From: Trichococcus shcherbakoviae
GTDB taxonomy: Bacteria > Bacillota > Bacilli > Lactobacillales > Aerococcaceae
Length of the DNA: 64,000 nucleotides
Direction of reading: 5' to 3'
Assembly (NCBI RefSeq): GCF_963666195.1
Contig: NZ_OY762653.1
Coordinates: 2,344,501 to 2,408,500 of the forward strand
The notes under the pieces were generated by a model, which was given only the letters and a program-made list of their open reading frames with translations, did not search any database and was not told where the DNA came from. The stretch's first letter is position 1. The number at the start of each line of letters is the position of its first letter. Shown piece by piece: positions 11,130-31,624 of the stretch. The translations under genes and the position numbers were made by a program.

Positions 11130-14076
<2,947 letters not shown>

Positions 14077-14137: not shown

Positions 14138-14178
14138 AAAAAGGATTCCTGCTCATTAAAGAGATAGGGATCCTTTTT
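14138..14178 (+). terminator. Terminator after the GH4 gene
   Basis: Imperfect stem AAAAAGGATTCCT / AGGGATCCTTTTT, with the T-run forming part of the stem. Confidence 0.7.
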
Positions 14179-14300
14179 GCGTGCGGCTATAACGATAGGC
14201 TGTGTGAATAAACAAGGGCTGACCTAAAAAATCGAATATCCAGTCAGTATTCGGTAAATAAAACAAAAATAGCACCAAGATTGTTGAATGTATACCGACA

Positions 14301-14361
14301 TTCGACAATTTCTGATCCACCGCGGATCAGATTGTCGAATAACTCCCGATTATTCGACAAT
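14301..14361. repeat. Alternating inverted repeats with core TTCGACAAT
   Basis: Three copies of TTCGACAAT/ATTGTCGAA in alternating direction. The first pair also shares CTGATCC/GGATCAG; the second shares ATTGTCGAATAA/TTATTCGACAAT. The middle arm can pair with either neighbour, giving two mutually exclusive hairpins. It lies in the 650-base gap before opuAA. The rest of that gap shows only AT-rich promoter-like sequence near 14530-14580. Confidence 0.6.
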
Positions 14362-14729
14362 CTATAAATCATAATGACTAAATGCCGATATGTTGCGCAT
14401 GGTTAATTGCAATATGTCTATCCATTAAACAACTTATTTAAAAAAATTCCAAATTCACTACGGTTACCTTTAGGAAGCGCGTGTAACCGCATCCTTTTTC
14501 ACAAAAAATTCACAAGTTTTTCATTTTTGATTTGCATATCCGCGCCATAACTGGATAATAGTGATTATACCTTTGTGATGTAACGAAATTATCTTCAATT
14601 TATATTTTCGGAATAAATGAAAATGTAAGACTATATTTGTACATTACGGAGACGCACAATCGGATTCGGGATTTCATTCCCATTACGAACAGAATCCACA
14701 CATACAGCATCGAAAATTTGAGAGGAGCA

Positions 14730-15932: not shown

Positions 15933-16779
15933 TCTATTGAATTTCATACCTGAATTACCGGTTGCCGATTTTGCTGAATACATCACAGACAAAACCGCCG
16001 ATACATTCAGTTTCCTGTTCGATCCGATCAAAGCGTCTTCGCAGACATTGATCGATCTGATGACCTCAACGCTGACTGCCATTCCGGCAGTCATTCTGAT
16101 CGCGTTAGTGGCGCTGTTGGCGTTCTTTGCCTCGGGTAAAAAATTCGGGTTGGCCATCTTTTCCGTCGTCGGACTCTGGTTCGTTTATAACCAAGGGCTC
16201 TGGGAAGACTTGATGTTCACCTTGACGTTGGTCCTGTTTTCGAGCTTACTGTCCGTCCTGATCGGTGTGCCTTTCGGTATCCTGATGGCGAAAAATAAAA
16301 TCGCGAACAACATCATCAATCCAATTCTGGATTTCATGCAGACGATGCCGGCTTTCGTTTATCTGATTCCGGCCGTAGCATTCTTCGGAATCGGCATGGT
16401 TCCCGGAGTGCTTGCGTCACTTATTTTCGCAATCCCGCCGACCGTCCGCTTCACGAATCTGGGGATCAGACAAGTTTCCACCGAATTGGTTGAAGCAGCC
16501 GAATCATTCGGCAGCACCGGCGCGCAAAGGTTATTCAAAGTCGAATTGCCGCTGGCGAAATCCACGATCATGGCCGGCATCAACCAAACCGTCATGTTAT
16601 CCTTGTCGATGGTCGTCATCGCTTCGATGATCGGTGCACCCGGATTGGGGCGTAATGTCCTTTCCGCCTTGCAACGCGCCAAAATCGGTTCCGGTTTCGT
16701 ATCCGGGTTGGCTTTGGTTGTGCTTGCCATCATCATTGACCGCTTGACCCAGAAATTCAGTAAAAAAAGTTCAACATAA
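15925..16779 (+). CDS. opuAB: Glycine betaine ABC transporter permease
   Basis: Membrane subunit of the OpuA system, with about six to seven transmembrane segments and the EAA-type loop ([19 protein letters not shown]) that contacts the ATPase. Start overlaps the end of opuAA, showing translational coupling. 284 residues. In some lactic acid bacteria permease and binding protein are fused; here they are separate genes. Confidence 0.93.
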
Positions 16780-16826
16780 AGACTAAATCGTTCCTGATTG
16801 CCAAACAAAAAGGAGAGAAACATAAT

Positions 16827-17732
16827 ATGACAAAAACAACAAAACGTAACTGGAAACGCCTTGGACTTACTGCCGGATTGGGCTTAGGTGTCTCGCTGAT
16901 CGCCGCTGGCTGCGGTGCGGCCGAAACAGAATCCATGGAAGATACGGTCGGCAAAGGCCAGGAAATTGAACTGGCTTACGTCGAATGGGATGATGCGGTG
17001 GCCACAAACCATGTCGTTGCTCAAGTATTGGAAGACCTCGGTTACGATGTGACCTTGACCCCATTGGACAACGCCATCATGTGGGAAGCCGTCTCCACTG
17101 GCGAAGCGGATGCCATGCTGAGCGCTTGGCTACCAGGAACGCACGGTGCGCAAATGGAAGAATACGGTGACAAGATGGTCGACCTGGGCGGAAACCTTGA
17201 AGGCGCGAAAATCGGTTTGGCCGTTCCTGCCTATATGGATGTCGACTCGATCGCAGATTTGACCGATCAAGCCGGCAAATCCATCACCGGCATCGAGCCG
17301 GGCGCCGGTATCGTAGCAGCCGCTGAAAATGCGCTGACCGGATATCCGAATTTGAGCGATTGGGCAATCGAGACGTCTTCATCCGGCGCGATGACCGTCA
17401 CGCTCGGACAAGCAATCGAAAATGAAGAAGAGATCATCATCACAGCTTGGAATCCGCACTGGAAATTCTCGGCCTATGACCTGAAATACCTGGATGATCC
17501 CAATGGCATTTTCGGCGGGGAAGAGACAGTCCACACGATGGTTCGTGAAGGGCTCGAAACCGACATGCCTGAAGCTTACCAAGTATTGGATCAATTCCAC
17601 TGGACCATTGAAGATGTCGAAGCATTGATGCTTCAAATCTATGAAGGCGAATCAGCCGAGGACGCTGCTGCAGCCTTCGTCGAAGCCAATCCGGATCTGG
17701 TCGCAGAATGGACTGCCGGCATAGCCAAATGA
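16827..17732 (+). CDS. opuAC: Glycine betaine-binding lipoprotein
   Basis: Substrate-binding protein of OpuA. Signal peptide of about 28 residues ends in the lipobox IAAGC, so it is anchored outside the membrane. The OpuAC fold shows aromatic residues suited to quaternary ammonium binding: YVEWDD, IMWEAV, SAWLPGTH and TAWNPHWKF. The start follows AAAGGAGAG. Last gene of the operon, followed by a strong hairpin terminator. Confidence 0.93.
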   Translation: MTKTTKRNWKRLGLTAGLGLGVSLIAAGCGAAETESMEDTVGKGQEIELAYVEWDDAVATNHVVAQVLEDLGYDVTLTPLDNAIMWEAVSTGEADAMLSAWLPGTHGAQMEEYGDKMVDLGGNLEGAKIGLAVPAYMDVDSIADLTDQAGKSITGIEPGAGIVAAAENALTGYPNLSDWAIETSSSGAMTVTLGQAIENEEEIIITAWNPHWKFSAYDLKYLDDPNGIFGGEETVHTMVREGLETDMPEAYQVLDQFHWTIEDVEALMLQIYEGESAEDAAAAFVEANPDLVAEWTAGIAK

Positions 17733-17750
17733 TGAATGTTGAACACTATT

Positions 17751-17793
17751 AGGAGTTGCTGTCTCGGAATGAGGCAGCAGCTCCTGCTTTTTT
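17751..17793 (+). terminator. opuA operon terminator
   Basis: Stem AGGAGTTGCTGTCTC / GAGGCAGCAGCTCCT, then GCTTTTTT. Confidence 0.88.
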
Positions 17794-17810
17794 GATAACA
17801 GTAGCCTGGG

Positions 17811-18015
17811 TTGTCCGATTTATCGGCATTATCAGACAACCATCGAACCAAACTTACAGCGATTGTCCGATTCATAGACGTTATCGGACAACCTTTGAAC
17901 CGAACGCGCAGAGGCTGTCCGATTCATCGGTGTTATCGGACAACCATCGAACCGAACGTGCAGCGGATGTCCGATTCATCGACGTTATCGGACAACCTTC
18001 GAACATTCGATCCAA
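17811..18015. repeat. Four tandem 52-base repeats with internal palindrome
   Basis: Units begin at 17811, 17863, 17915 and 17967, exactly 52 bases apart. Each holds an inverted repeat TTGTCCGATT...ATCGGACAA and a linker near CATCGAACCGAACGTGCAG. Spacer-like parts are also conserved, so it is not a CRISPR. The open frames across it follow from the repeat. Confidence 0.85.
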
Positions 18016-18080
18016 ATGTTCAAAGCGCAATGGTGAGACTCGGAAACCGGATAACCACAGGGAATTCGTTTACTTCACGA

Positions 18081-18131
18081 AAAAAAAGCGAAGGCCAACA
18101 GCATCCGCGTGCTGTTCGTCTTCGTTTTTTT
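18081..18131. terminator. Terminator downstream of the Fic gene
   Basis: Stem with arms GCGAAG.CCAACAGCA and TGCTGTTCG.CTTCG, A-run before and T-run after. It closes the - strand Fic gene and may also stop + strand transcripts. A similar hairpin plus the flank TTCTTTTGAACATTTTGTC recurs at 19560-19637. Confidence 0.75.
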
Positions 18132-18152
18132 AGTTCTTTTGAACATTTTGTC

Positions 18153-18968
18153 CTATTCTTTCGCATACATGTCTTCATCCAACAGTACGTTCTTTTTGCC
18201 CAACAGCAGATTTTCGAAAAATATTTTCAAGAAATGTTTATCCTGTTTTTCGCCATGATGATGGTAGAAAACGAGGGAGTTTCTGAAGTAGGCGGCATGC
18301 TCGCTGAAGAGTGAATTGTCGATGTGGAATCCTAATTTCCTCAAATATTGGATACCGAAAACAGCGACCGTCCGAGTATTTCCTTCCCTGAAAGGATGGA
18401 CTTGCCAAATGTCTGCCAAAAATGCCATCACATGCAGCGCTTTTTGCTCGTGGGTCAGGTTCCTGTACGAGAAATTCTTTTCTTTTTCAAAATCGTACGC
18501 CAAAGTATCCTGAATCATGAAATGCGAACTGTATTGGACAGTCTCCCCATCGAGCACAGGCTCTTTCTTTGTGATATTCACCGTCCGAAACTTGCCCACC
18601 GGAATTTCTTCCGGGAAAACATCAGTGAACAAATGCCTGTGGATGCCCAACAGCGTGGAAGGGGAGAGTAGGAAGTGATCTTCAGCTAACAATTCCGCAA
18701 TCCGGAGCGAAACGATATCCGCCTCGACCGTGTTTGCATCCACATGTGCTTCCCGGTGATAATCCGAAATTTCGCGATAAATGGCGTCATATCCTTTTTT
18801 TCCTTCTATATTTTCATAGGCCAGCTCGACCATGTACTCGGATGGGCTGAGGCCATCGACTTTTTGCAAGCCGAAAGCAGTCTGCCACAGAGCCAATTTA
18901 ATCTGATACGGTAACTCGTTCTCGGCCACATCATAGGTGGGCGGTAATTTACTTTCTGAATAGTCCAT
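18153..18968 (-). CDS. Fic-domain protein (putative AMP/UMP transferase)
   Basis: Fic proteins attach AMP or other phosphate-containing groups to target proteins and often act as toxins or regulators. The Fic core is visible with HPFREGNTRT at residues 191-200, which gives the catalytic His and the phosphate-binding loop (Thr replaces the usual second Gly). The beta-hairpin region that presents the target lies before it (GKFRTVNI). 271 residues, cytoplasmic. It is 80 bases downstream of a HicB-like gene in the same direction and may be co-transcribed. No adjacent Fic-specific antitoxin (FicA/Phd) is seen. The target is unknown. Confidence 0.88.
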   Translation of the reverse strand: MDYSESKLPPTYDVAENELPYQIKLALWQTAFGLQKVDGLSPSEYMVELAYENIEGKKGYDAIYREISDYHREAHVDANTVEADIVSLRIAELLAEDHFLLSPSTLLGIHRHLFTDVFPEEIPVGKFRTVNITKKEPVLDGETVQYSSHFMIQDTLAYDFEKEKNFSYRNLTHEQKALHVMAFLADIWQVHPFREGNTRTVAVFGIQYLRKLGFHIDNSLFSEHAAYFRNSLVFYHHHGEKQDKHFLKIFFENLLLGKKNVLLDEDMYAKE

Positions 18969-19048
18969 AACTAAAACCCCATTTCAAATAGAAAAGTGAC
19001 GTGCTTCCTAATGATTATACAACTAATTTGTTCAATAATGCCGCTGCA

Positions 19049-19453
19049 TCAGACGTCCAATTTTTCCTTTAAAGCCTCTGTCAACGTCAACGAGAAGTTG
19101 ATGCCTTTTTCGATGCCAAGTTCATTCAAATAATTGGGAATCGTGAGCGTCTTTTTCACCACTTTGTTGTCGCGCTGTGCTTTATATTTTTTGAAGTTGA
19201 TATCCACAAGTGTCTTAATCTGCGTATTTTTTTGTAGATAGGCGATTTGATCTGGCAAGGGGAGAGGCTCGTTTTGCTCCATTTTATCGATGACGGCAAA
19301 ACCGATATAATCCCTCGCCATCGTGATGGCCTCCGCCAAATCTTTCCCTTGTGTGTAGCCATTCACATCCGGTATCTCGACAAAATAAGGATATTCCTCG
19401 GCCAAGTCGACGGTGATGTAGATCGGATAGATGTATACTTTGTCTTCAATCAT
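19049..19453 (-). CDS. HicB-family antitoxin-like protein (orphan)
   Basis: About 134 residues: an N-terminal HicB-like partial RNase H fold (YPYFVEIPDVNGYTQGKDLAEAITMARD) and a C-terminal ribbon-helix-helix-like tail (LTIPNYLNELGIEKGINFSLTLTEAL) for DNA binding. HicB normally neutralises the small RNase HicA encoded next to it. No HicA-sized frame lies upstream or downstream, so it is an orphan, or a regulator that has been paired with the following Fic gene. The start follows AGAGGGGGA. Confidence 0.82.
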   Translation of the reverse strand: MIEDKVYIYPIYITVDLAEEYPYFVEIPDVNGYTQGKDLAEAITMARDYIGFAVIDKMEQNEPLPLPDQIAYLQKNTQIKTLVDINFKKYKAQRDNKVVKKTLTIPNYLNELGIEKGINFSLTLTEALKEKLDV

Positions 19454-19557
19454 GATGGGTCCCCCTCTTATGACTGCGTTCTTCTATGTAATTTATTGTA
19501 CGTGTGTTATACGTGCTAGTCAAATGAGGGCTACACTGAATTTTATTAAGCTCGAAT

Positions 19558-19604
19558 AGAAGCGAAGACGATCAGCATCCTCCAGCTGGTCGTCTTCGCT
19601 TTTG
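19558..19604. terminator. Hairpin upstream of hicB, duplicate of the one behind fic
   Basis: Stem AGCGAAGACGA.CAGC / GCTG.TCGTCTTCGCT followed by TTTT. Followed at 19612 by TTCTTTTGAACATTTTGTC, also present after the hairpin at 18081. The rest of the gap to 20084 holds no gene. Confidence 0.6.
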
Positions 19605-19923
19605 TTGCGTTCTTTTGAACATTTTGTCTTTTATTCATCAGGTAAACTTCCGAACATTCTCCCAAACTCGACCCTATAAACGGTAGGATTCCTCACATGA
19701 TCCCTCTTGATAACCGCAAAAAAACTCTTCTGCAATCAAAGTGTGTCAGTAAATCTGACGTGCATTCCTGGAAACTGGCGTCATTTTTCAAAAGGAAACT
19801 TAAATATAACGATAGCCTATCTTCATCATTCCACCCATATCAAACTTGAAACCCCTCACAATTATCCGGAAGAATAAGTCAGTTTCTTTTCAGAAAAACC
19901 TTACATAACTGACAAACAACAAG

Positions 19924-19987
19924 AAATATTCCCCGTTGTAAGCGGAATATTTTCCTCATGAAAGCAGAAATGTCATAAATGCTATCA
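19924..19987 (+). promoter_or_regulatory. Inverted repeat and possible GlnR/TnrA-like box before the taurine operon
   Basis: AAATATTCC / GGAATATTT inverted repeat (19924-19952), then TGTCATAAATGCTATCA (19971-19987), which fits TGTNA-N7-TNACA with one mismatch. A nitrogen-control site would suit an operon with PII proteins and an aminotransferase. The role is inferred. Confidence 0.3.
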
Positions 19988-20084
19988 TGAAATTAGAGCT
20001 TTCAGTTTACCGGAAGTAAAAATCACACTATTATGGGGACATATTAGAAAATGATTAAAAGAAATTTCATCGGGAGGGAACAGC

Positions 20085-21449
20085 ATGACAGTGAACGCAA
20101 CATGGAATACAACGGAAGCAACAACTTTAACCGGAGAAGAAGTAATAGCGATGGATCAACAGTACGTGATGCGGGCCTGGTCGAAGCAGGGCCAAGCTGC
20201 CATGGCAGTCGAAAAGGCGGAAGGCATTTATTTCTGGGATTATGAAGGCAACCGTCAAGTGGATATGTCCTCCTTGTTGGTCAACGCGAACATCGGCCAT
20301 CAGCATCCGAAAGTCGTGAAGGCAATCCAGGATCAGGCTGCAAAGATGTGCTTCATGGCACCGAGTTATGCGACCGATGTGAAGTCCTTGTTGGCAAAAA
20401 AACTGGTTGAGCTGGCCGGCGGGGATATGGCGCGCGTGTTCTTCACGAATGCCGGAGCCGATGCGAACGAGAATGCGATCAAGATGGCGCGGATCGCGAC
20501 GGGGCGCACGAAAGTCTTCAGCGGCTACCACAGCTACCACGGCGCCACGCTTGCAGCTTCGAATGCTTCCGGGGATTCCCGCAGGTTCGCTGCTGAAATC
20601 GGCGGTGCGAACGGCTTCGTGAAATTCTCCAATCCGTCTCCTTACCGCGACAATCTTCCATTTGAAACCGAAGAGGCATTGACGGCCTTTTACCTGAAGA
20701 ATCTGGCTGAACAGATCCAATACGAGGGCCCGTACAACGTGGCGGCCATCCTGTTGGAAACGGTCATCGGCGCGAACGGCATCATCGCTTATCCGAAAGG
20801 GTATTTGGAAGGGGTGCGCAACCTCTGCAACAGCTACGGTATCGTGATGATCTGCGATGAAGTTATGGCCGGCTTCTACCGGACCGGAACAGCTTTCGCT
20901 TTCCAACAATACGGATTCACGCCGGATATGATCACTTTCGCCAAAGGAGTGACATCAGGCTACGTTCCGCTAGGAGGCGTGATCGTCTCCGAGTGGATCA
21001 GCGAATATTTCACCGAAAACCAACTCCAATGCGGCTTGACCTACAGCGGCCACACCTTGGCTTGCGCGGCCGGCTTGGCGACATTGGAAGTCTATGAAGA
21101 AGAAAACATCGCCGCCAACGTCGAAAAAATCGGCGCAATCTTGAAGGGCTACCTGGAAGAGATGAAAGCCAAGCACCCTTGCGTGGGCGATGTCCGCACT
21201 TACGGCCTCTTCTGCGGAGTGGAGCTGGTGCTCGACAAGGAAACGCGCGAGCCGCTTGTGCCGTTCAACACGCCGAACCGGATCATGCCGGCGATCTACA
21301 AGGAACTGAAGGACCGAGGCTTCTCAACTTTCGGCCGCGAAACGACGATCAGTGTCTGCCCTCCGCTTACGATCACCGAAGCAGAGTTGGCTGAAGTGAT
21401 GCCGATCCTGGATGAAGTGCTGACGCTTGTCGATGAGCAATATATGTAA
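20085..21449 (+). CDS. Class III PLP aminotransferase, likely taurine (omega-amino acid) aminotransferase
   Basis: Fold-type I PLP enzyme of aminotransferase class III, which moves terminal amino groups from substrates such as taurine, beta-alanine or 4-aminobutyrate to pyruvate or 2-oxoglutarate. Seen: FFTNAGADANENAIKMAR (PLP phosphate site), YHSYHGAT, ICDEVMAGFYRTG with the PLP Asp near residue 265, and TFAKGVTSGY with the Schiff-base Lys near residue 289. 454 residues, typical. Start after GGGAGGGAAC. It opens an operon with two PII proteins, a TauABC-like importer and a Fe-ADH-type reductase. Together these suggest taurine deamination to sulfoacetaldehyde. Alternative substrates are other aminoalkyl-sulfonates or -phosphonates. 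Confidence 0.87.
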   Translation: MTVNATWNTTEATTLTGEEVIAMDQQYVMRAWSKQGQAAMAVEKAEGIYFWDYEGNRQVDMSSLLVNANIGHQHPKVVKAIQDQAAKMCFMAPSYATDVKSLLAKKLVELAGGDMARVFFTNAGADANENAIKMARIATGRTKVFSGYHSYHGATLAASNASGDSRRFAAEIGGANGFVKFSNPSPYRDNLPFETEEALTAFYLKNLAEQIQYEGPYNVAAILLETVIGANGIIAYPKGYLEGVRNLCNSYGIVMICDEVMAGFYRTGTAFAFQQYGFTPDMITFAKGVTSGYVPLGGVIVSEWISEYFTENQLQCGLTYSGHTLACAAGLATLEVYEEENIAANVEKIGAILKGYLEEMKAKHPCVGDVRTYGLFCGVELVLDKETREPLVPFNTPNRIMPAIYKELKDRGFSTFGRETTISVCPPLTITEAELAEVMPILDEVLTLVDEQYM

Positions 21450-21512
21450 ACTGCGCCGGGTCCCGGCCGCAACACATTTCAAAAAATCTACTATATAAAA
21501 GGGGTGGAGCGC

Positions 21513-21842
21513 ATGCTAGTGAAAATTGAGGCCATCGTGAGGCCGGAGAAGACCGAACTGATTTTGGCGAAACTCGCTGAAAAGGGGCATACCGCCGTGA
21601 CGCGGATGGACGTGTACGGACGGGGGAAACAAGCCGGCATCCATATCGGCGACGTCTTCTACGACGAACTGCCGAAGGAATTATTGTTCCTCGTGGCCGA
21701 AGCAGCCCATGAGAAGGAAATCGTCGACGTGATCACCACACAAGCGCGCACAAGCGATTTGGGGAATTACGGCGACGGCAGAATATTCGTTCACGCAATC
21801 GAAAACGCCTATACGATCAGTAGCGGCGTAGAAGGACTTTAA
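21513..21842 (+). CDS. PII signalling protein, NifI1-like
   Basis: Small trimeric 2-oxoglutarate/nucleotide sensor of the PII superfamily. The sequence is closest in style to NifI1: MLVKIEAIVRPEKTELI at the N-terminus, the GRGKQAGI stretch where GlnB has its T-loop start, DELPKELLFLV, and GDGRIFV near the C-terminus. The T-loop lacks the uridylylated Tyr context of GlnB. I start at the ATG after GGGGTGG; an in-frame GTG lies 9 bases upstream. NifI1 normally sits between nifH and nifD and, with NifI2, controls nitrogenase; no nif gene is in this window. Here it follows the aminotransferase and precedes a second PII gene by about 28 bases. Confidence 0.88.
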   Translation: MLVKIEAIVRPEKTELILAKLAEKGHTAVTRMDVYGRGKQAGIHIGDVFYDELPKELLFLVAEAAHEKEIVDVITTQARTSDLGNYGDGRIFVHAIENAYTISSGVEGL

Positions 21843-21869
21843 TAGAAGGACTGTAAAGGTGGGAATTGC

Positions 21870-22187
21870 ATGAAGGAAGTGACAGCGATCATTCGCCTGA
21901 ACAAGGTGACGGAAACGAAACAAAAATTGGCAGCGGGCGGATTTCCAGGCTTCACTTGCCGAAAAGTATTCGGACGCGGCAAGAATCCGCTGATAGGGAG
22001 AGATTTCCGCGAAGCGATTGGACACAGCGTGCTGATGCCGAAACGGATGTTTACGATCGTGACGGAGGATGAGCATGTGGAAAACGTGATCGGCATTTTG
22101 TTGGCCGTCAACAGCACCGGCCAGGCGGGGGACGGCAAAATTTTCGTGCAAACGATCGCCCGCGAATATCAGGTACGCCGCGCATGA
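21870..22187 (+). CDS. PII signalling protein, NifI2-like
   Basis: Second PII-family protein of the operon, about 105 residues. MKEVTAIIRLNKVTETKQKL, then GFPGFTCRKVFGRGKN, a longer and different T-loop region (PLIGRDFREAIGHSVL), LMPKRMFTIVTEDE and GDGKIFVQTI. The GRGK and PKRM motifs are those of NifI2. Start after AAAGGTGGGAATTGC. Its stop overlaps the first ATG of the permease frame. In methanogens NifI1 and NifI2 form a hetero-oligomer that responds to 2-oxoglutarate; a like pair could sense nitrogen state to control transport or transamination here. That role is inference. Confidence 0.85.
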   Translation: MKEVTAIIRLNKVTETKQKLAAGGFPGFTCRKVFGRGKNPLIGRDFREAIGHSVLMPKRMFTIVTEDEHVENVIGILLAVNSTGQAGDGKIFVQTIAREYQVRRA

Positions 22188-22225
22188 AACAGTTTAGGCG
22201 AAAAGAGACCAAGGAGGACAATTTT

Positions 22226-23074
22226 ATGAAGAAAGCAGATACGCTCACAAGCGATGCACTGATTCCCGAGCAAAGCACGTCCGCGACCGCGGCAAAGAAA
22301 AGACGAAAGAGGATCCAGCCGGAAAAAATGATCACCGTCGGCACCGTCGCAGCGATCATGGTGCTCTGGTATGTCGTAACCGCGCTGGGGCTGGTCAGCC
22401 CGATGCTGCTGCCGAGCCCGTTGGCGGTTTGGACGGCCTTCGTAGAGATCCTCTTCAACGGTTATAAAGGCTACTCCTTGCTGCAGCACATCGGCACCAG
22501 CTTATGGCGCTTGCTCAGTGCCTTCGGATTGGCGATCATCGTCGCGATTCCGTTGGGTTTGCTCAGCGGCTACAACACGAAGATCAAAGCGGCCTTGGAT
22601 CCGATCATCAACTTCTACCGCCCGTTGCCGCCATTGGCTTACTACACTTTGTTGGTAATGGGGCTCGGGATCGCGGATGCTTCGAAAGTCGCCTTGCTTT
22701 TCCTTGCGGCCTTCGCACCGATCTACGTCAGCTGCGTCTCCGCCGTTGCGAAAGTCAACACAGACTTCATCAACAGCGCAAAAACGGTCGGCGCCAGCCA
22801 GACCCAAGTGTTCTTCCATGTCATCCTGCCTTCCTGCTTGCCGGATATCCTGACGAGCCTGCGCACCGCACTCAGCGTCGCCTATACGACCCTCGTTTCG
22901 GCGGAAATGGTCGCGGCCATGACCGGGATCGGCTGGCTGGTCCTTGATGCCAGCAACTACCTGCGCAGCGACATCGTCTTCGTCGGCATCATCATCATGG
23001 GCATCACCGGCATTCTTTTGGATAAAATCATCGTCATCGTACAAAATAAATTTGTCCCTTGGGCAGGAAAATAA
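22226..23074 (+). CDS. tauC: Taurine/sulfonate ABC transporter permease
   Basis: Integral membrane subunit of a NitT/TauT-family importer. After a basic N-terminus there are six or so membrane segments and the EAA-type loop (FINSAKTVGASQTQVFFHVILPS) that docks the ATPase. I chose the ATG after AAGGAGG (22211-22217) rather than the ATG at 22184 inside the end of the PII gene. 282 residues, normal length. Lies between the PII genes and the binding protein, so it is the first transport gene of the unit. Confidence 0.88.
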   Translation: MKKADTLTSDALIPEQSTSATAAKKRRKRIQPEKMITVGTVAAIMVLWYVVTALGLVSPMLLPSPLAVWTAFVEILFNGYKGYSLLQHIGTSLWRLLSAFGLAIIVAIPLGLLSGYNTKIKAALDPIINFYRPLPPLAYYTLLVMGLGIADASKVALLFLAAFAPIYVSCVSAVAKVNTDFINSAKTVGASQTQVFFHVILPSCLPDILTSLRTALSVAYTTLVSAEMVAAMTGIGWLVLDASNYLRSDIVFVGIIIMGITGILLDKIIVIVQNKFVPWAGK

Positions 23075-23086
23075 TCGGAGGCTTTT

Positions 23087-24145
23087 ATGAAAAAAAACCA
23101 CATGTTCTCTAAACTACTGTTCTTATCTTGCTCAGCTCTTTTGTTTGCGGCTTGCGGCAGCGCGGACAGCGCGACCGATTCTTCCACCGCTTCGGCGGAT
23201 GGCGACCTGCCTGATAAAGTCATCATCGCGACTTTGGAAATGCCGAACGACGAAGGCATCGCGAAAGCGGAAGGCTATTTTGAGGATGAAATGGGTGTGC
23301 CAATCGAAATCGTCCAATTCGAAAGTGGAAAAGCGATCAACCAGGCCATGGTTTCCGGCGCCGTCGACTTCGGATTGACCGGTTCGGGCTCGGCCGTATT
23401 GGGTATCGCTTCTGGCATCCCGATTGAAATGATCTGGATCCATGAGACGTTAGGTTCCGTGGAATCCTTGGTTGCCAAGAACGAACTGAACGCTACCTCC
23501 CTGGAAGACCTGAAAGGCAAGAATATCGGCGTTCCTTTCGCCAGCACGGCCCACTACAGCCTGCTGCGCGCCATCACGGCCAGCGGTTTTGAAGAGACTG
23601 ATTTCACCTTGATCGACCTGCAGCCGTCCGACATTTTTGCGGCATGGCAACGTGGCGACATCGATGCCGCCTACATCTGGGAGCCTACCCTCAGCGAATT
23701 GCTGACTGACGGCACAATCGTTCTTCACAGTGGCGACGTAGCTGAAATGGGTTATATGACAGCCAACGTCGAAATCGTCCACAGCGAATTCGGCGAAGCT
23801 TATCCGGAAATCGTTGAGAAATACATCGCTGCTGTCGATAAAGCCGTAACGCTTTACAGAGAAGATCCGAATCAAGCCATCTCCATCATCGCTAAGCAAC
23901 TGAACATCACTGAAGAGTCCGCTAAGCTCCAAATGGAAGGCCAAAACTGGATTTCCGCAGAGGAACAATTGGATGCAGCCAACCTGGGGTCATCCGATGC
24001 AGTCGGCGCAATGGCCGCTACAATGTATGATATGGGCCAATTCTACCTGGATCAAGGCAACATCACCGCATCGCCGAGCGAAGAAGATTTCGCTGAAGGC
24101 ATCAACACAACGTACGTCGAAGCTTACTTGGATTCGAAAGAATAG
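23087..24145 (+). CDS. tauA: Taurine-binding lipoprotein, TauA-like
   Basis: Solute-binding protein of the NMT1/TauA family. Signal peptide with lipobox LLFAAC. The mature part matches TauA in pattern: GSGSAVLGIASGIPIEM, GVPFASTAHYSLLRAI and LQPSDIFAAWQRGDIDAAY; the Ser/Thr-His of the second and the Arg-Gly-Asp of the third belong to the sulfonate pocket in TauA, as I recall. 352 residues. Start after CGGAGG. Support for taurine is better than for nitrate or aliphatic sulfonates, but substrate still rests on family resemblance and on the aminotransferase in the operon. Confidence 0.86.
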   Translation: MKKNHMFSKLLFLSCSALLFAACGSADSATDSSTASADGDLPDKVIIATLEMPNDEGIAKAEGYFEDEMGVPIEIVQFESGKAINQAMVSGAVDFGLTGSGSAVLGIASGIPIEMIWIHETLGSVESLVAKNELNATSLEDLKGKNIGVPFASTAHYSLLRAITASGFEETDFTLIDLQPSDIFAAWQRGDIDAAYIWEPTLSELLTDGTIVLHSGDVAEMGYMTANVEIVHSEFGEAYPEIVEKYIAAVDKAVTLYREDPNQAISIIAKQLNITEESAKLQMEGQNWISAEEQLDAANLGSSDAVGAMAATMYDMGQFYLDQGNITASPSEEDFAEGINTTYVEAYLDSKE

Positions 24146-24157
24146 GGGGAACCGCTT

Positions 24158-24970
24158 ATGCAGAGGACTTATGAAGGAATCAACGGAAAGACAGTGGTAA
24201 AACTGGAGGATGTCGAACTGGTCTATAACAGCGAAATCGGGACAGTGACGGCCTTGGCCCAAGTCAATCTCGACATCCAAGAAGGCGAGTTCATCTGCGT
24301 AATGGGACCATCCGGCTGCGGCAAGAGCACGCTCTTGAACATCATCTCGGGCTTCATGCAGCCGACGGACGGACAAGCCTTGATGAACGGCAGGCCGATC
24401 GAAGGACCGGATTGGCAGCGGGGAGTCGTCTTCCAGTCGCCGCCGCTGTATCCGTGGCTGACGATCAAAGAGAACGTCAATTTCGGCTTGCGCATGCGCA
24501 ACATTCCGGAAAAGGAACGCGAAGCAATCACGGAGGAATATCTGGAAATCGTCGGACTCCAGGACTTCGCCAACCGCAAGCCGTATGAACTTTCCGGCGG
24601 GATGAAGCAGCGCGCCTCCTTGGCGAAAGTGTTGGTCAACGAACCGGGCATGATCCTGATGGACGAACCGTTCGGCGCACTCGACGCTTTGACCCGCGAC
24701 AAGATGCAGGCGCTGATCCGCCGCATCTGGATGAAGAACCAAAGCACCGTCTTCTTCATTACCCATGATGTCGACGAAGCCCTGTCCCTGGCGACGAAAG
24801 TCATCGTCATGTCCAGCCGCCCCGGCCGCATCGTGAAGGTGCTCGACACCGACTTCACCTACGACATGGACGGAGCCAACAGCGAAAGCGCCCGCTACTC
24901 CAAGCAATACATGACGATGCGCGAATCAATCCTGAACGTCATCAACCAAAAAGACGAGCTGGCTGTGTAG
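24158..24970 (+). CDS. tauB: Taurine/sulfonate ABC transporter ATPase
   Basis: ATP-binding subunit of the importer. Walker A GPSGCGKS near residue 50, Q-loop FQSPPLYPWLT, signature LSGGMKQR, Walker B ILMDEPFGALD and switch His in FITHDVDEAL, all characteristic of NitT/TauT-type ATPases. 270 residues. It follows the binding protein by 12 bases and ends the transport part of the operon; a weak hairpin (about 24992-25033) sits before the reductase gene. Confidence 0.92.
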   Translation: MQRTYEGINGKTVVKLEDVELVYNSEIGTVTALAQVNLDIQEGEFICVMGPSGCGKSTLLNIISGFMQPTDGQALMNGRPIEGPDWQRGVVFQSPPLYPWLTIKENVNFGLRMRNIPEKEREAITEEYLEIVGLQDFANRKPYELSGGMKQRASLAKVLVNEPGMILMDEPFGALDALTRDKMQALIRRIWMKNQSTVFFITHDVDEALSLATKVIVMSSRPGRIVKVLDTDFTYDMDGANSESARYSKQYMTMRESILNVINQKDELAV

Positions 24971-25077
24971 GTTGGATGGTATAATGAAACAAAATGATCC
25001 GAAGGGCTTGCCGCGATGGCGCGCCTTTCGGATTGCTGTTTAATAGAGCAAAATTTACTGCAGAAAGGGTGCATGGA

Positions 25078-26226
25078 ATGGATTGGAATTATCAACAACC
25101 AGTGAAAATCATCTTCGGAAACGGAAAAATTTCCACTTTGAAGGAGGTCATCGCGGAGATCGGGGAGACGGACGGCATCCTGATCTGTTCGCGTTCCTTC
25201 CGCAAATCCGGACTGGCCGACAAAGTCATCGCCGAAGCGGGCGGCCTCTTGAACGCCGTCTACAGCGACGTTTCGCCCAATCCTGAGGTGGCCGAAGTCG
25301 ATGCCTGCGCCGAGCTGATGCGCGCGAATGGCTCCAAATTTGTGGTCGCGCTGGGCGGGGGAAGCGTGATGGACCTCGCCAAAGCTGCCGCGACGATCGC
25401 CACGGTGAACGAGTCGATCAGGCTCTACCACGGCACCGGCAAAGCTTTGCCGGAAACCTTCCTGCCTTTGATCGCTGTGCCGACGACTTCCGGAACCGGC
25501 AGCGAAGTCACGAGCGTCTCGGTCCTTTCCGACCACGCAACCGGCAAAAAAGCGCCGATCCTGTCGCCAAACTTCTTCCCGGCCTACGCTGTCGTCGATC
25601 CGGAATTGACCTATACGTGCCCGCCGACAGTGACCTCCTGCTCCGGGATCGATGTCCTTTGCCAAGCGGTCGAAGGATACTGGAGCGTGAACCACCAGCC
25701 AATCTGCGACGCGCTGGCGATCCATGCAGCCAAATTGGTGTTCGAGCATCTGCCGATCGCCTATGCAAACCCGACCGACGCCACGGCGCGCGAAAAGATG
25801 GCCGAAGCCTCCGTCATCGCCGGACTGGCCTTCGCGCTGCCGAAGACGACTTCCTCGCACGCCGTCTCCTATCCGCTGACGAACCTCTACGGCATCCCGC
25901 ACGGCGAAGCCTGCGGATTGACGATCGATTACTTCGCCAAAGTGAACGCCCTGCTGGAGACCGACGGCCGCGTGACCGCCTTCGCCAAAGCACTCGGCTT
26001 TGCCGATGCGCCTGCGATGGCGGATGCCATCACAGCGCTGAAAAAACAGATCGGCTTGCGGACGGATCTGACGGATTTGGATTTGTCCGATGCCCAGATT
26101 GACGAATTGGTGCAGCTTTCCCATCACCCGAACCTCGAGAACAATCCCGTCAAGATCACGGATGACATCCTCTATGATCTGTTCGGGACATTGACTAAGA
26201 CAGATATGTATGTGGAGCAGCCGTAA
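25078..26226 (+). CDS. Iron-ADH-family reductase, candidate sulfoacetaldehyde reductase
   Basis: Member of the iron-type alcohol dehydrogenase superfamily: NAD(P)-binding GGGSVMDLAK near residue 95, VPTTSGTGSEVT, GID...EGYWS and a C-terminal SSHAVSYPLTNLYGIPHG. Of the four classical metal ligands, Asp (GID) and the last His (PHG) are present, but the His of DALxHA is Gln (DVLCQA) and the His of AHPL is Tyr (SYPL), as in subgroups acting on phosphono- or sulfo-acetaldehyde or lacking metal. In Bilophila wadsworthia an enzyme of this superfamily (SarD) reduces sulfoacetaldehyde to isethionate after taurine transamination; the same job is likely here. ATG after GAAAGGG. Confidence 0.8.
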   Translation: MDWNYQQPVKIIFGNGKISTLKEVIAEIGETDGILICSRSFRKSGLADKVIAEAGGLLNAVYSDVSPNPEVAEVDACAELMRANGSKFVVALGGGSVMDLAKAAATIATVNESIRLYHGTGKALPETFLPLIAVPTTSGTGSEVTSVSVLSDHATGKKAPILSPNFFPAYAVVDPELTYTCPPTVTSCSGIDVLCQAVEGYWSVNHQPICDALAIHAAKLVFEHLPIAYANPTDATAREKMAEASVIAGLAFALPKTTSSHAVSYPLTNLYGIPHGEACGLTIDYFAKVNALLETDGRVTAFAKALGFADAPAMADAITALKKQIGLRTDLTDLDLSDAQIDELVQLSHHPNLENNPVKITDDILYDLFGTLTKTDMYVEQP

Positions 26227-26241
26227 CCGGCTGCTTTTTTC
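26215..26241 (+). terminator. Terminator overlapping the reductase stop codon
   Basis: Stem AGCAGCC / GGCTGCT with the TAA in the loop, followed by TTTTTT. Confidence 0.75.
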
Positions 26242-26254
26242 TTTCCACATAACA

Positions 26255-26405
26255 AGGAATACCCCGTCAAAACCGGTTTTGGCGGGGTATTCCTAGTGCG
26301 CGCAGTTCAAAGTTCCCCGCCAAAACTGATTTGGCGGGCTAAATCAACTTCGGGCGGCCCGAAATAAACCGCCAAAGTCTGTTTGGCGGGGAAAACCCCG
26401 CCCCG
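26255..26405. repeat. CCGCCAAA-type palindromic repeats, left copy
   Basis: A 40-base near-perfect palindrome (AGGAATACCCCG...CGGGGTATTCCT) is followed by CCGCCAAAactgaTTTGGCGG and CCGCCAAAgtctgTTTGGCGG units. The last ~90 bases closely match 29471-29563, in the same direction, on the other side of the ABC/TetR block. Confidence 0.8.
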
Positions 26406-26442
26406 AGGTTTGAAACATTCTAACTCTTTTTTCCTTTACTAC

Positions 26443-26493
26443 AAAGAAACAGCCACCCAACCTCAAAACGAAGCTGGATGGCTGTTTCTTTAG
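26443..26493. terminator. Terminator of the ABC exporter gene
   Basis: Stem AAAGAAACAGCCA / TGGCTGTTTCTTT around the segment CCCAACCTC...GAAGCTGGA, directly beyond the stop of the - strand gene. Confidence 0.8.
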
Positions 26494-26505
26494 TTGCTTT
26501 TAAAC

Positions 26506-28557
26506 TTAGTCATGACGCAAAGCTTCGATTGGATCGAGCTTGGCTGCTTTATTGGCAGGGAAGACACCGGCGATGACGCTGATGATGACGCTGGCCAGGA
26601 TGCCCAACAAGGCATAGGTCGGGGTCATGTGCAGGATGGTCGTCCCGAAGATGCGCTCGACCGCCACGTTCCCGATTGTGGAAAGCAGGGCGGCAATGCC
26701 GACACCCAGCAGGCCGCTGAACAAGCCGATCAGGAAGGACTCGGAGACGAAGATGCGGCGGATATCTTTGTTGCGCCCGCCGATCGCTTTGATGACGCCG
26801 ATTTCCTGCGTCCGCTCAACGACGCTGATGTAGAGGACAGTCAGGATCATGATGGCCGATACGAACAAGGAAATGCCAGCCACACCGGCTAGGATATACG
26901 TGAAGATATCCAGCAATTTCGTGAAGGTTTTTGCCAGCGTGTCTGTGGAAGAGCCTGCATATCCCAATCCGTTGATCGCATCTTTGATGTCTTGGGAATT
27001 GCTTGTTTCATCCGCGAATAGATACGCGACATTCGGTTCCACGGTCAAGCCGTTTTCAGCGTTCATGTCCGAAAAAGTGTCCATCGTCATGAAGACCGAG
27101 TCGAAAGCGCCGGAAGGGCCGATCGCGTTTCCGGCTGTGTAGATGCCGCTGACCGTGTAGGTGCCGTTCAAAGGGTTGCCGTTGACGGCAAGCTTGACTT
27201 CGATTTCCTTGCCGATCATATCTTCAGGGGTGCCGGCCATTCCATCGGCCATTTCCTCAGTGATCAGGACTTCATCCTGCTCCGGGAATTCGCCGTACAA
27301 AATGTTGGAGTCGGTCATGAACTCCGAAGTCGTGCCGAAGTTCATGAAGGGATAATTTTCGCCTTCATAAACGACCGTGTCGCTGCCCATCGAGAAGGAA
27401 GCGTAGGACAATTCCAACTTTTCGACATTCGGAATGGCTTCCAGTTCGGCAATGTTAGCCTCTTCAAACGGGATGTTCTTCGAAAGCTGCGCGGCCGGAT
27501 TATCGGCGATCAGCGTGCCGCCGATTCCGCCACCGCCGCCCATGCCGCTTGGCTGCGCAGGTGCTGCTTCTGCGACGGTTTCGACGCTTGCAGAGGTGTC
27601 GGACTGCGTCTCCTCGGTCATCCGCGCTTCACTGATGATCGGATTGACGTTTTCATTCATCGTGTCGGTCAGGTAGTCGTTCACGCCTTTGCCGAGCGCC
27701 AGCATCAGGATGATGCTCATGATGCCGATGCTTCCGCCCAACGCAATCAGGATGTTCCGGCTCAATTTCTCTTTCATATTCAACAAGGCCATGCGGATGG
27801 CCGCGAAGAAACTCAGATTTTTGTTTTCCTGCTTTTCCTTTATTTGGAAGGCGTTGTCGTGGAACTGCAGCGGCGGGCGCTTTTCGTCATTGATGATTTT
27901 GCCGTCGTCGATCGTCACGATGCGGGTGGAACGGGAAGCGACGCGCTCCGAGTGGGTGACCATGATGACCAGCTTGCCGGTTTTCGCGATGTCCTGGATG
28001 ATGTCCAGCACTTGATCGGATGTCTGGGAATCAAGCGCTCCGGTAGGTTCGTCGGCGATGATGATGTCCGGGTCATTAACAAGGGCCCGCGCGATCGCCA
28101 CCCGTTGCTTTTGCCCACCGGATAATTGGCTCGGTTTCTTTTGGTAATGGTCCTTCAGACCCAGTTGCTCCAGCACCTCTTTGGCGCGTGCTTTTCGGGT
28201 TTTGCTGTCGATGTTCGAAAGCGTCATCGCCAAGGTGACGTTGTCCAAAATGGAAAGGTGAGGGACGAGATTGAAACTTTGGAAAATGAAGCCGATTTTC
28301 TCTTTGTGGAAAGCGACCATTTCCTTTTCCTTGAACTGGCCGATATTCTCGCCGTCCACCAGTATTTCACCGTCGAATTGCGAATCCAAGCCACCCAACA
28401 GGTTCATCAACGTCGACTTGCCGCTGCCGGATTCACCGATGATCGAAACCAATTCGCCTTTTTCGAAAGACAACTGGACGTCCTTCAATGCGTGGAAACG
28501 TTCGCTGTCGGTGATTGGATAATATTTGTTTAAGTTGTTTACTTCCAAAAATGCCAT
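26506..28557 (-). CDS. MacB-type ABC transporter (ATPase fused to FtsX-like permease)
   Basis: Mechanotransmission ABC exporter of the MacB group, probably exporting peptides or an antimicrobial or aiding resistance. ATPase in residues 1-230 (Walker [17 protein letters not shown], Walker B IIIADEP). One membrane segment at about 260-285 precedes a large outer domain with a Gly/Pro-rich insert ([10 protein letters not shown]), then three membrane segments in the C-terminal FtsX domain. 683 residues. Start after GAGGAGGAACAG. A TetR gene lies upstream in the same direction, with an operator-like palindrome between them. Confidence 0.92.
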
Positions 28558-28584
28558 ATAACTGTTCCTCCTCTTAAATAAATA

Positions 28585-28602
28585 AGTGAGTAATCACTCA
28601 CT
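28585..28602. promoter_or_regulatory. Operator-like palindrome before the ABC exporter gene
   Basis: AGTGAGT-AATC-ACTCACT in the 98-base gap between the TetR gene and the exporter. The half-site is typical of TetR-family operators (TGAGTxA...ACTCA), so autogenous repression of the exporter by the neighbour is likely. Confidence 0.65.
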
Positions 28603-28655
28603 TTTATCTTGTGGGTACAGTATAGTCCTTAACAGAGCAGACTGTCAAGGACTGA

Positions 28656-29300
28656 TTATGGCTGGAGGCCTTTTTCGAGAAAAAGAATCAAATGATCGGT
28701 TTCGACATTCGCATCGGCGTTGCTGGAGAGACCCATCGATTTCGCGACGACAAAACCGGCAACCGTGCTGATGATCAGGCGGATGATTTCTTCATTCGGC
28801 CAGTCGACGATCTCTTGCTTTTGTTTGAACAGATCCAAAAGCTGGTTGATCTCTTGGAACAGTGCTCCTGGAATCAGCGTCAGCAGATTGTCGCGCATGC
28901 TTTCCTGGTACTGATATTCGGTCAGAAATATTTTCCAGATTTTCATATTGTTGCCGGCGAAATCAATCCTGTCGGGCAGGACATGGTGGAGAAAATGATG
29001 GAAGGATAAGTCAGCCATATTCTCCTTGTTTTTCTGCAGTTCCGCTGGAATCAACACTTCGAGCGACTTGCTGAGGATCGGCAGAATGCTGGCGTACAGC
29101 AGATTCTCCTTCGACCCGAAATGCTTGAAGATGGTGCCTTCCGCCACATTCGCCAAGCGGGCGATGTCCTTTGTCGATGTGTTTGAATAGCCCTTTTCCG
29201 CGAACAACTCCAGACTGGCGCTCAAAATAGCCTGCATCTTAGGCGTCAATTTCTCGTTGTTCTGGATTTTGTGTTTAAAGATTTCAAAAATCGAATCCAC
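28656..29300 (-). CDS. TetR-family transcriptional regulator
   Basis: N-terminal TetR helix-turn-helix at about residues 22-66 (ILSASLELFAEKGYSNTSTKDIARLANVAEGTIFKHFGSKE region), then an all-helical ligand domain. 214 residues, typical. Likely represses the MacB-type exporter downstream through the AGTGAGT palindrome, released by an unknown inducer, perhaps the exported compound. The start has a ribosome site AAAGGAGCGGA upstream. Confidence 0.9.
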   Translation of the reverse strand: MDSIFEIFKHKIQNNEKLTPKMQAILSASLELFAEKGYSNTSTKDIARLANVAEGTIFKHFGSKENLLYASILPILSKSLEVLIPAELQKNKENMADLSFHHFLHHVLPDRIDFAGNNMKIWKIFLTEYQYQESMRDNLLTLIPGALFQEINQLLDLFKQKQEIVDWPNEEIIRLIISTVAGFVVAKSMGLSSNADANVETDHLILFLEKGLQP

Positions 29301-29416
29301 TCTATCCGCTCCTTTACAGTTAGTTTTGGTTCCATCTTACGTTGGAAACCGGAAACAAGCAAGCAGTTTCCGGAGATTGGCGGTTGATGTGCGGATATGT
29401 GGATCTCGGATCGGGC

Positions 29417-29571
29417 GGAGTTTCCCCGCCAAAGGCTGCTTGGCGGGGAGAACCCGCCCGTCATAGAGCAGAATTCCCCGCCAAAATTGATTTGGCGGGC
29501 TAAATCAGCATCGTACAGCTCAAAATAAACCGCCAAAGTCTGTTTGGCGGGGAAACCCCGCCCAATTCAAA
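29417..29571. repeat. CCGCCAAA-type palindromic repeats, right copy
   Basis: Units CCCCGCCAAAggctgcTTGGCGGGG, CCCCGCCAAAattgaTTTGGCGGG and CCGCCAAAgtctgTTTGGCGGGG. The last ~90 bases repeat 26310-26403. Together the two copies bracket the exporter/TetR block as direct repeats. Confidence 0.8.
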
Positions 29572-29574
29572 CCG

Positions 29575-30532: not shown

Positions 30533-30567
30533 GAAACAGCTCCTCCATTCATCAACCAATAGTGCCT

Positions 30568-31482
30568 TCAGATCAGCCCGACAGCGAGCAAAACACCAAC
30601 CAAGGCAAGCATGACGCCCACGATGAGCTGCACCGCCCGCAAGGTCACTTTTTCCAGAAGCCGCGAGCCGGCGAATGCGCCCGCAAAGGCGGCAGCAATC
30701 GCAGCCGAAACCAACGCCCAGTCGGCATCCGTGCCGATGGTGCCCAGATGGTTCGCATAAACGGAAAGCCGGGTAAGGTCGATCAAGAAGGCCGCGGCAA
30801 CGCCGGTCGCGATGAAGGCTTCCTTCTCGAGGCCCGCTTTGCTGAGGAAGGCGGAGCGGAGGGCACCTTGATGACCGGACAGACCGCCGAAGAAGCCGCT
30901 GACGGCGCCGCCCAACGGCAACCATTTCTCAGCGAATGCCAGCTTTTCGAAGCGCGGAAGCAACTCGATTATGGCGAAACCAATCATCAGGACCCCGATG
31001 ACGACCTTGACCACTGAAATCTGGAAGTCCCTCTGGCCGATTGCGTAGCTTGCTATCGGCGGCAATTCCGAAAAATAGGTCAGCAGCCACGCGCCCACGA
31101 AAGCCGCAACGATGCCGGGCAGGGCGAATTTCAACAGTACCGATTTATCGGCTTTCCGTCCCACAAGCACCAGCTTAAAGACATTGTTCGCCAGATGGAC
31201 GACCGCCGTCATGGCTATGGCCGTTTCCAGCGGGAAAAAGAGTGCGAATGCCGGCATCAGCAAGGTGCTTAGCCCGAATCCGGAAAAAAGGGTCAAAAAA
31301 GATGCGCCAAGGGCAACAAGGCAGACGATCACGTACATCATTTTTTCCACAACCTTTGCTTGAGGACATACGAAAAGGACCAAGATAGTTGCTGCAAGCC
31401 CGCAAGTGACAATTCGTTCCTTCATTTCTATTGTGCGCTCAATGGAGCGGCAGATGCAAATGATAAGACATGATTCGGCCAT
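30568..31482 (-). CDS. TauE/SafE-family anion transporter
   Basis: Membrane protein of the TauE/SafE (DUF81) family, which exports sulfite, sulfoacetate or other organic anions. About eight membrane segments, with the family hallmarks LFSGFGLSTLLMP and the duplicated half GGLSGHQGALRSAF. The start is uncertain: the frame opens at an ATG with AAAGGTGG upstream, but in-frame ATGs at 31425 and 31341 would give lengths nearer the family norm. It is 36 bases upstream of the AEC gene and co-directional. The link with the taurine operon 5 kb away is only thematic. Confidence 0.82.
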   Translation of the reverse strand: MAESCLIICICRSIERTIEMKERIVTCGLAATILVLFVCPQAKVVEKMMYVIVCLVALGASFLTLFSGFGLSTLLMPAFALFFPLETAIAMTAVVHLANNVFKLVLVGRKADKSVLLKFALPGIVAAFVGAWLLTYFSELPPIASYAIGQRDFQISVVKVVIGVLMIGFAIIELLPRFEKLAFAEKWLPLGGAVSGFFGGLSGHQGALRSAFLSKAGLEKEAFIATGVAAAFLIDLTRLSVYANHLGTIGTDADWALVSAAIAAAFAGAFAGSRLLEKVTLRAVQLIVGVMLALVGVLLAVGLI

Positions 31483-31624
31483 CCGTATTCGCCACCTTTT
31501 TATCTAAATGATTACGGAGGGCTTTTCATAGTGGCGACAATTATTCCGGGGTATAATGGACACAAGGAAACGAAAATCAGAACAACGGAATGAACCTTTT
31601 GCCTGGTGGAAGGAGTTTTTTTTA

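Follow-up and report, generated by a model that had tools for sequence, protein, structure and literature searches.

NifI1/NifI2-type PII genes in a taurine-type operon of Trichococcus shcherbakoviae and in front of importer genes of other lineages

Introduction

PII proteins of the NifI1/NifI2 type switch nitrogenase on and off in methanogens and some anaerobes. In the GlnK-AmtB system the PII gene adjoins that of the transporter which GlnK gates, and Synechocystis contains a single canonical PII, encoded outside the importer operon. Docking by PII proteins usually involves the T-loop. The known target of NifI is NifDK (PMC9765008), and Synechocystis PII binds NrtC, NrtD, and UrtE of ATP-binding cassette (ABC) importers (PMC6603209). 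For taurine, a route consisting of TauABC, Toa, and TauF, by which taurine nitrogen reaches glutamate and isethionate is left as by-product, has been described in Bifidobacterium kashiwanohense (PMC6616044). In this study, we analysed a 64,000-nt stretch of Trichococcus shcherbakoviae (the window; contig NZ_OY762653.1, the single contig of a 2.93-Mb genome) and found at 20085-26226 an operon in which adjacent NifI1- and NifI2-type genes lie between a Toa-like aminotransferase gene and the genes of a taurine-type ABC importer.

Like the NifI1/NifI2 genes of nitrogenase systems, the two genes are adjacent and in the same order, both products group with NifI proteins, and NifI1 keeps a T-loop of 15 residues and the YTIS end. 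Unlike them, they are linked to an importer, no nitrogenase protein was detected in the genome, and the NifI2 T-loop has 19 residues instead of 26-41. The operon resembles the TauF-type clusters of B. kashiwanohense in its Toa-, TauABC-, and TauF-like genes and in the retention of active-site residues, whereas the NifI pair is built into the window operon and PII goes unmentioned in the main text of PMC6616044. As in the control of NrtABCD and UrtABCDE (PMC6603209), PII is found at a nitrogen ABC importer, and the second-best family of the TauB-type ATPase is that of the nitrate-importer ATPase (TIGR01184); in contrast to the single canonical PII of Synechocystis, the window has a two-gene NifI-type pair. 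Finally, PII lies next to a transporter as in GlnK-AmtB, and the host genome even contains two ammonium transporters with a fused PII domain, but the PII subfamily of the window is different and the transporter unrelated.

Results

The operon and its two PII proteins

Reading of the open reading frames (ORFs) and family models revealed seven genes on the + strand separated by short gaps (Table 1), in the order Toa-like aminotransferase, NifI1, NifI2, TauC-type, TauA-type, TauB-type, and TauF-like reductase. A preliminary description of this DNA had reported a one-strand operon of these families, and indeed all seven ORFs are present, with families as stated; the motifs that it listed, GRGKQAGI and GDGRIFV in NifI1 and GRGKN and MPKRM in NifI2, are exact in the sequence. 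For NifI1, ATG 21513 is a likelier start than GTG 21504 judging from start-codon context; for TauC, ATG 22226, with AAGGAGG immediately upstream, is likelier than 22184; and for TauF, ATG 25078, which aligns with the start of the B. kashiwanohense enzyme (BkTauF), is preferred over 24994. The order from Toa through TauB was kept in 7/7 related contigs mapped (L074-L080; L and G denote the loci and genomes of our survey). One of these, L080 (MUZD01000004.1), carries the Trichococcus operon in a record labelled Sedimentibacter sp. SX930.

Table 1. Features of the operon and its surroundings (window coordinates)
Feature	Position	Strand	Basis
Promoter-like site (TTTACC, 17 nt, TATTAT)	20006..20034	+	Consensus scan; upstream of operon
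Toa-like taurine:2-oxoglutarate aminotransferase (class III)	20085..21449	+	PDB 6jix, PRK06062, PF00202
NifI1-type PII protein	21513..21842	+	PF00543 60 bits; PDB 9p1x_H; tree; YTIS C-terminal stretch
NifI2-type PII protein, T-loop shortened to 19 residues	21870..22187	+	PF00543 64 bits; PDB 9p1x_G; tree
TauC-type ABC permease	22226..23074	+	NF007545 TauC 220 bits, best family, cut-off 342 not reached
TauA-type substrate-binding lipoprotein	23087..24145	+	TIGR01729 taurine-binding 197.5 bits, best family, cut-off 304 not reached
TauB-type ABC ATPase	24158..24970	+	NF008421 TauB 257 bits, best family, cut-off 357 not reached
TauF-like sulfoacetaldehyde reductase (iron-containing alcohol dehydrogenase family)	25078..26226	+	PDB 6jko; active-site residues
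Terminator-like hairpin	26214..26237	+	10-pair stem then T-rich tail, at operon end after TauF
TauE/SafE-family permease	30568..31482	-	PF01925 90 bits; candidate isethionate or sulfite exporter, by association only

The two PII proteins of the window are 30% identical to each other. The best PDB match of NifI1 was 9p1x_H (93.5 bits, next 55) and that of NifI2 was 9p1x_G (89.7 bits, next 56), GlnK structures scoring lower in both cases; entry 9P1X is presumably a NifI1,2 structure, judging from its chain names. In a tree of 117 PII rows (47 NifI1-like, 50 NifI2-like, and 20 GlnK-like rows, 112 columns, near-identical nif rows thinned beforehand), many forks of which are open, the window NifI1 lies inside a 28-row set of NifI1 rows (support 96) and the window NifI2 inside a 49-row NifI2 clade (support 98), and NifI rows are separated from GlnK rows with a support of 86-89. 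The GlnK rows include the three GlnK-type domains of the host genome itself, and four rows first labelled NifI1 (L211, L220, L244, and L245) also group with GlnK. Thus, the NifI1/NifI2 identity proposed in the preliminary description, which had named grouping with ordinary GlnK as the outcome that would speak against it, is borne out by the tree, where each protein stands with its respective NifI rows and apart from GlnK. An ordinary GlnK or GlnB identity was also ruled out by the NCBIfam models, the best scores being 37 and 46 bits against cut-offs of 181-202. The AlphaFold model of NifI2 (mean predicted local distance difference test score 84.7, with T-loop residues 44-51 below 50) has the PII fold according to Foldseek.

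The NifI2 T-loop differs in length between nif-linked and importer-linked proteins. Counted from Q39 to K58, over all rows so that relatives count several times, it has 26-41 residues in 76/76 nif-linked rows, 23-24 residues in the seven rows from guanidine- or urease-type loci (see below), and 19 residues in 4/4 taurine-linked rows, with no overlap; the T-loop of GlnK rows also has 19 residues (20/20). The NifI1 T-loop is 15 residues long in 75 of 78 nif-linked, 4/4 taurine-type, and 7/7 guanidine- or urease-type rows, and T occupies NifI1 position 101 in 76 of 78 nif-linked and 4/4 taurine-type rows. Because PII proteins usually dock through the T-loop, its shortening in NifI2 fits a change of target. 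With position numbering and ligand roles that we assume to be those of canonical PII, the window NifI1 contains Q39, K58, R90, T101, and S103, and NifI2 contains N39, K58, K90, Q101, and R103. Q39 and R103 are split between the two proteins, and complete sites could therefore form only between both of them. Together, NifI1 and NifI2 would make up a heteromer responding to 2-oxoglutarate and ATP.

The ratio of nonsynonymous to synonymous substitution rates (dN/dS; eight sequences compared) is low for all seven operon genes: 0.040 for NifI1, the lowest in the operon, 0.074 for NifI2, and 0.047-0.095 for the other five. Both PII genes are under purifying selection. Among 13 genomes of the genus, NifI1 was found at 96% identity or more in eight (own genome included) and TauF in nine. 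Since the gene order is kept in relatives, NifI1 is common in the genus, and dN/dS is low, the arrangement is more than chance. In the trees the window pair is placed with nif-linked pairs from other families of the phylum, which makes a transfer likely, and a functionless passenger from a transferred nif cluster might be imagined. However, this is highly improbable, since the dN/dS values of the pair are in line with those of the other five genes and the pair-importer arrangement recurs in other lineages; a relic status of the pair was rejected on dN/dS.

NifI pairs at importer genes of other lineages

Of 87 adjacent NifI1-NifI2 pairs mapped, including that of the window, 76 have NifH-, NifD-, or NifK-like neighbours and 11 do not. 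In all 11 pairs without nif-type neighbours, the next gene downstream encodes an SsuABC/TauABC-type importer subunit. Thus, the linkage of the pair to an importer, noted in the preliminary description, recurs in other lineages, and the survey of gene order that it had proposed found the same order in related contigs. The partner enzymes vary (Toa and TauF; carboxylase and UAAP; ureohydrolase and urease), but the adjacency to the importer is constant.

Four of the 11 pairs are of the taurine type (window, L062, L074, and L057), and five further Trichococcus-type contigs (L075-L078 and L080) have the order of the window. At L057 the order is NifI1, NifI2, TauC, TauA, TauB, Toa, TauF; the pair stays at the importer and Toa follows TauB. 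Six pairs (L176, L177, L178, L202, L277, and L278) are of a carboxylase type, in which two UAAP-type genes and an ORF of the urea/guanidine-carboxylase type come after the importer genes; these assignments rest on models run in part on L176, L177, L178, L202, and L278, and on likeness for L277. A Guanidine-I riboswitch lies between the importer and enzyme genes in three of the six (L202, L277, and L278, with 82.2, 81.4, and 79.6 bits, respectively) and was not found in L176-L178. With riboswitch, Ssu-type importer, UAAP, and carboxylase genes, L202, L277, and L278 resemble the Guanidine-I riboswitch carboxylase operons reviewed in PMC12186494; unlike in those operons, for which the main text of the review mentions no PII, a NifI pair heads the importer genes. 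Around the remaining pair, at L226, are genes for a ureohydrolase of the agmatinase family, a PucR-type regulator, the gamma and beta subunits of urease, and one more small PII-like protein (11454-11756 of L226, 101 aa, PF00543 37 bits), the third of this locus, which is encoded between the ureohydrolase and urease genes.

In a tree of 52 of the 87 pairs, thinned as above and built without the NifI2 T-loop columns, the seven guanidine- or urease-type pairs form one clade (100/98) and the taurine type lies elsewhere. A single origin of all importer-linked pairs was neither shown nor rejected (approximately unbiased test, p 0.136; taurine rows alone, 0.158).

The main rival to control of the importer is that the NifI pair controls the aminotransferase, itself a 2-oxoglutarate user, or the transcription of the operon. 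The Trichococcus pair immediately follows Toa, in genome G969 a single NifI1-like gene lies between Toa and a non-ABC permease, and PucR-family regulators are encoded beside the PII-bearing loci L057, L237, and, more weakly, L226, as well as beside the PII-less L294. On the other hand, the mapped stretches of all seven guanidine- or urease-type loci contained no Toa-like gene, yet the pair is still at the importer there, and in G103 the pair adjoins the importer while Toa is behind TauB. Furthermore, no regulator gene was seen adjoining Toa in the window. We regard this rival as possible but rather unlikely.

Single NifI1-like genes are also found beside transporters of other families. In four loci of one family (L237, L302, L303, and L304), such a gene is located just before a Liv-type importer, the permease family being confirmed in three, and at L305 it is flanked by Toa and a permease of the APC family, in a cluster that also contains TauF and a TauE-family gene. 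At L304 (6788-13980) the lone NifI1-like gene and Liv-type importer have genes resembling a microcompartment-type alcohol/aldehyde pathway alongside (by eye). At L238 (6748-7101) the lone NifI1-like gene, with GSGK for GDGK, is flanked by polyphosphate kinase- and PhoU-like genes (by eye), and is possibly linked to phosphate supply. L060, L061, and L246, all from one genus (g14) of the class sample, each have a single NifI1-like gene that adjoins neither nif nor importer genes.

Nitrogenase and other PII genes

No protein of the host genome matched the nitrogenase model PF00148, and a nif cluster elsewhere in the genome was therefore rejected. The preliminary description had considered that a nif cluster immediately outside the window and sharing the PII genes would undo its proposal; none came to light with this model. 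PF00148 also had no match in 7/7 other Trichococcus genomes with the pair (one 63% complete) or in G416, G423, and G426, and one match below the cut-off (18.6 bits) in G103. G864, G920, G921, and G876 do hold PF00148 proteins, so that importer-linked NifI genes occur both with and without nitrogenase-family proteins.

PII proteins often have several targets, and no nif target was detected for the window pair, which could thus be a general nitrogen sensor whose main targets lie elsewhere, such as glutamine synthetase or Amt. We consider this very unlikely, since the genome already has three PII domains of the GlnK type, including two that are fused to ammonium transporters, and since four of the 13 genus genomes (one 51% complete) lack both TauF and the pair, and the genome with a lone TauF lacks the pair as well. 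The genome with the lone TauF, G006 (T. palustris), has TauF at 76% identity with a TauE-like gene, and no PII, Toa, or importer gene within the mapped stretch around TauF. L001 and L003 encode the two ammonium transporters, in which the PII domain is fused at the C terminus. At L073 (6300-8519; about 2331300-2333519 of the host genome), the gene directly downstream of that for a DUF1538 protein (423 bits) encodes a protein of 221 aa in which a P-II domain scores 33.9 bits, perhaps as another pair of PII and membrane protein.

In a sample of the phylum, NifI1 was found in 64 of 398 genomes. Of 70 NifI1-like genes at the loci mapped from this sample, 63 lie with nif-type genes (two of these being GlnK-like in the tree), two with Ssu/Tau-type importers (L202 and L226), and five elsewhere (L237, beside a Liv-type importer, L238, L244, L245, and L246); locus G861:C35 (56 bits) was left out of the mapping. 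NifI1 matches were found in 4 of 105 genomes of the family of G103 at E 1e-12 or better, and in 50 of 82 genomes of the class of G864 at 1e-20, where two further importer-linked pairs (L277 and L278) came from a mapping of 30 loci and a few more. Of the eight class-sample loci L031-L038, three were mapped. TauF was found in 2/398 genomes of the phylum at E 1e-85, a number too small to estimate how often TauF clusters are linked to PII; in a scan of named genomes with TauF, 80 of 211 relatives were kept, of which only 11 had at least 55% identity.

The taurine enzymes and importer

The Toa-like protein is closest to Toa of B. kashiwanohense (PDB 6jix, 594 bits, next 241), scores 564 bits with the PRK06062 subfamily (cut-off of 472 passed), and also matches PF00202. 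Likewise, the TauF-like protein is closest to BkTauF (6jko, 493 bits, next 165), and all seven active-site positions given in PMC6616044 are kept (D192, Q196, F252, T257, H261, F/Y265, and H275), with Y at F265, a replacement which occurs in TauF homologues (PMC6616044). It is predicted from this likeness to be a reductase that likely converts sulfoacetaldehyde to isethionate. SarD identity was ruled out (NF050025, 188 bits against a cut-off of 700; BkTauF far closer). Thus, the Tpa and SarD route invoked in the preliminary description is replaced by Toa and TauF, while its view that nitrogen is scavenged from taurine and that isethionate is probably the waste product is supported by the two matches. 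This metabolic half, a unit turning taurine into isethionate, is already published (PMC6616044).

The importer proteins have taurine families as their best matches, but all three remain under the curated NCBIfam equivalog cut-offs, for which reason we call the importer taurine-like and claim no membership in TauABC. Accordingly, the substrate may be a related amine or sulfonate and the operon may serve a different nitrogen source, but we find this unlikely. Toa and TauF are far closer to the Bifidobacterium enzymes than to any other solved protein, and the best family of TauA is the taurine-binding one. Moreover, BkTauF had no activity on ethanol, ethylene glycol, or ethanolamine and only 5% and 15% on two analogues (PMC6616044).

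A protein with the stretch KVVEKMMYVIVCLVALGA, identical to one in the TauE/SafE permease of the window, adjoins the lone TauF of T. palustris, and another PF01925 protein is encoded within the PII-bearing taurine cluster L305. TauF-Toa-Tau importer clusters followed by a glycyl radical enzyme gene were seen at L082-L084 (Clostridia metagenome-assembled genomes); no PII gene was seen at L082 and L083, both cut at contig ends. The large protein of L082, first taken as isethionate-lyase-like, scores as sulfopropanediol dehydratase (1491 bits, cut-off 1000).

Other features around the operon

In alignments of the upstream regions, the promoter-like site before Toa has TTTAC in 8/8 and TATTAT in 7/8 sequences, with a variable spacer; the number of promoter-like and terminator-like sites in the region was no higher than in shuffled sequences. 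A riboswitch in the window was rejected, as a scan of 14000-32000 gave just two sub-threshold matches to miRNA models (E 0.63). On the - strand, a permease-like gene (29575-30530, AEC-type by eye) is broken into two reading frames close to a homopolymer run at about 30270, and L074 and L062 have a single ORF of 318 aa at this place. Repeated intergenic elements with CCGCCAAA...TTTGGCGGG palindromes were seen by eye at about 26260-26400 and at 29425-29555.

Discussion

We propose that the operon scavenges nitrogen from taurine and carries a nitrogen gate of its own, in which the NifI complex shuts the importer when nitrogen is plentiful; we give this reading a probability of about 0.52. The Tau-type ABC importer would take up taurine, the Toa-like enzyme would transfer its amino group to 2-oxoglutarate, yielding glutamate and sulfoacetaldehyde, and the TauF-like enzyme would reduce sulfoacetaldehyde to isethionate, which would exit the cell. 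The NifI1- and NifI2-type proteins would form one complex sensing 2-oxoglutarate against ATP/ADP. When nitrogen is short and 2-oxoglutarate high, this complex would release the importer; when nitrogen is plentiful and 2-oxoglutarate low, it would bind the importer, most likely the TauB ATPase, and uptake would stop. Such a gate would act like GlnK on AmtB or cyanobacterial PII on NrtC and NrtD, with sensors taken from the nitrogenase switch. As Toa consumes 2-oxoglutarate as well, signal and substrate would be identical.

Several observations weigh against this proposal. The 11 importer-linked pairs represent only some five lineages (Trichococcus, G103, the G416/G423/G426 set, the G864/G920/G921 set, and L226), and the importer proteins fall short of the taurine cut-offs. 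At positions 39 and 101 NifI2 carries N and Q instead of Q and R, respectively, and at position 90 NifI1 carries R instead of K, substitutions that could mean altered ligand binding. G969 keeps a single NifI1-like gene beside Toa and TauF with an APC permease as the transporter, so that docking to an ABC ATPase cannot be the sole mode; the position of the L305 gene beside an APC permease suggests a variable docking surface or Toa as an additional target. Lone NifI1-like genes without an adjoining importer are found at L059, L060, L061, L238, and L246. Finally, TauF/Toa clusters without a PII gene exist (L084 and L294), and thus the PII gate is not essential to the pathway.

The position of the pair in front of importers in relatives suggests that the NifI sensor may also gate the uptake of organic nitrogen. 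On this basis, we speculate, at even odds, that NifI1/NifI2-type pairs are not bound to nitrogenase and were co-opted, possibly on more than one occasion, to shut off importers for taurine, guanidine, and other organic nitrogen compounds as a portable module, the shortened NifI2 T-loop marking the new target, and that single NifI1-like proteins do likewise for Liv- and APC-type transporters. PII gating of transporters is known, but a NifI pair recruited to importers appears novel; no report of a NifI pair beside an importer was found in the literature searched, which is weak evidence as the search covered titles and the starts of abstracts and few subscription journals.

If the proposal is true, a nitrogen gate would be added to the route from taurine to isethionate, a substrate for sulfide-producing gut bacteria (PMC6616044). 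Trichococcus would offer a small culturable system for studying how a two-part PII complex changes its target, and NifI1/NifI2 would be a general switch of nitrogen supply rather than one for nitrogenase only.

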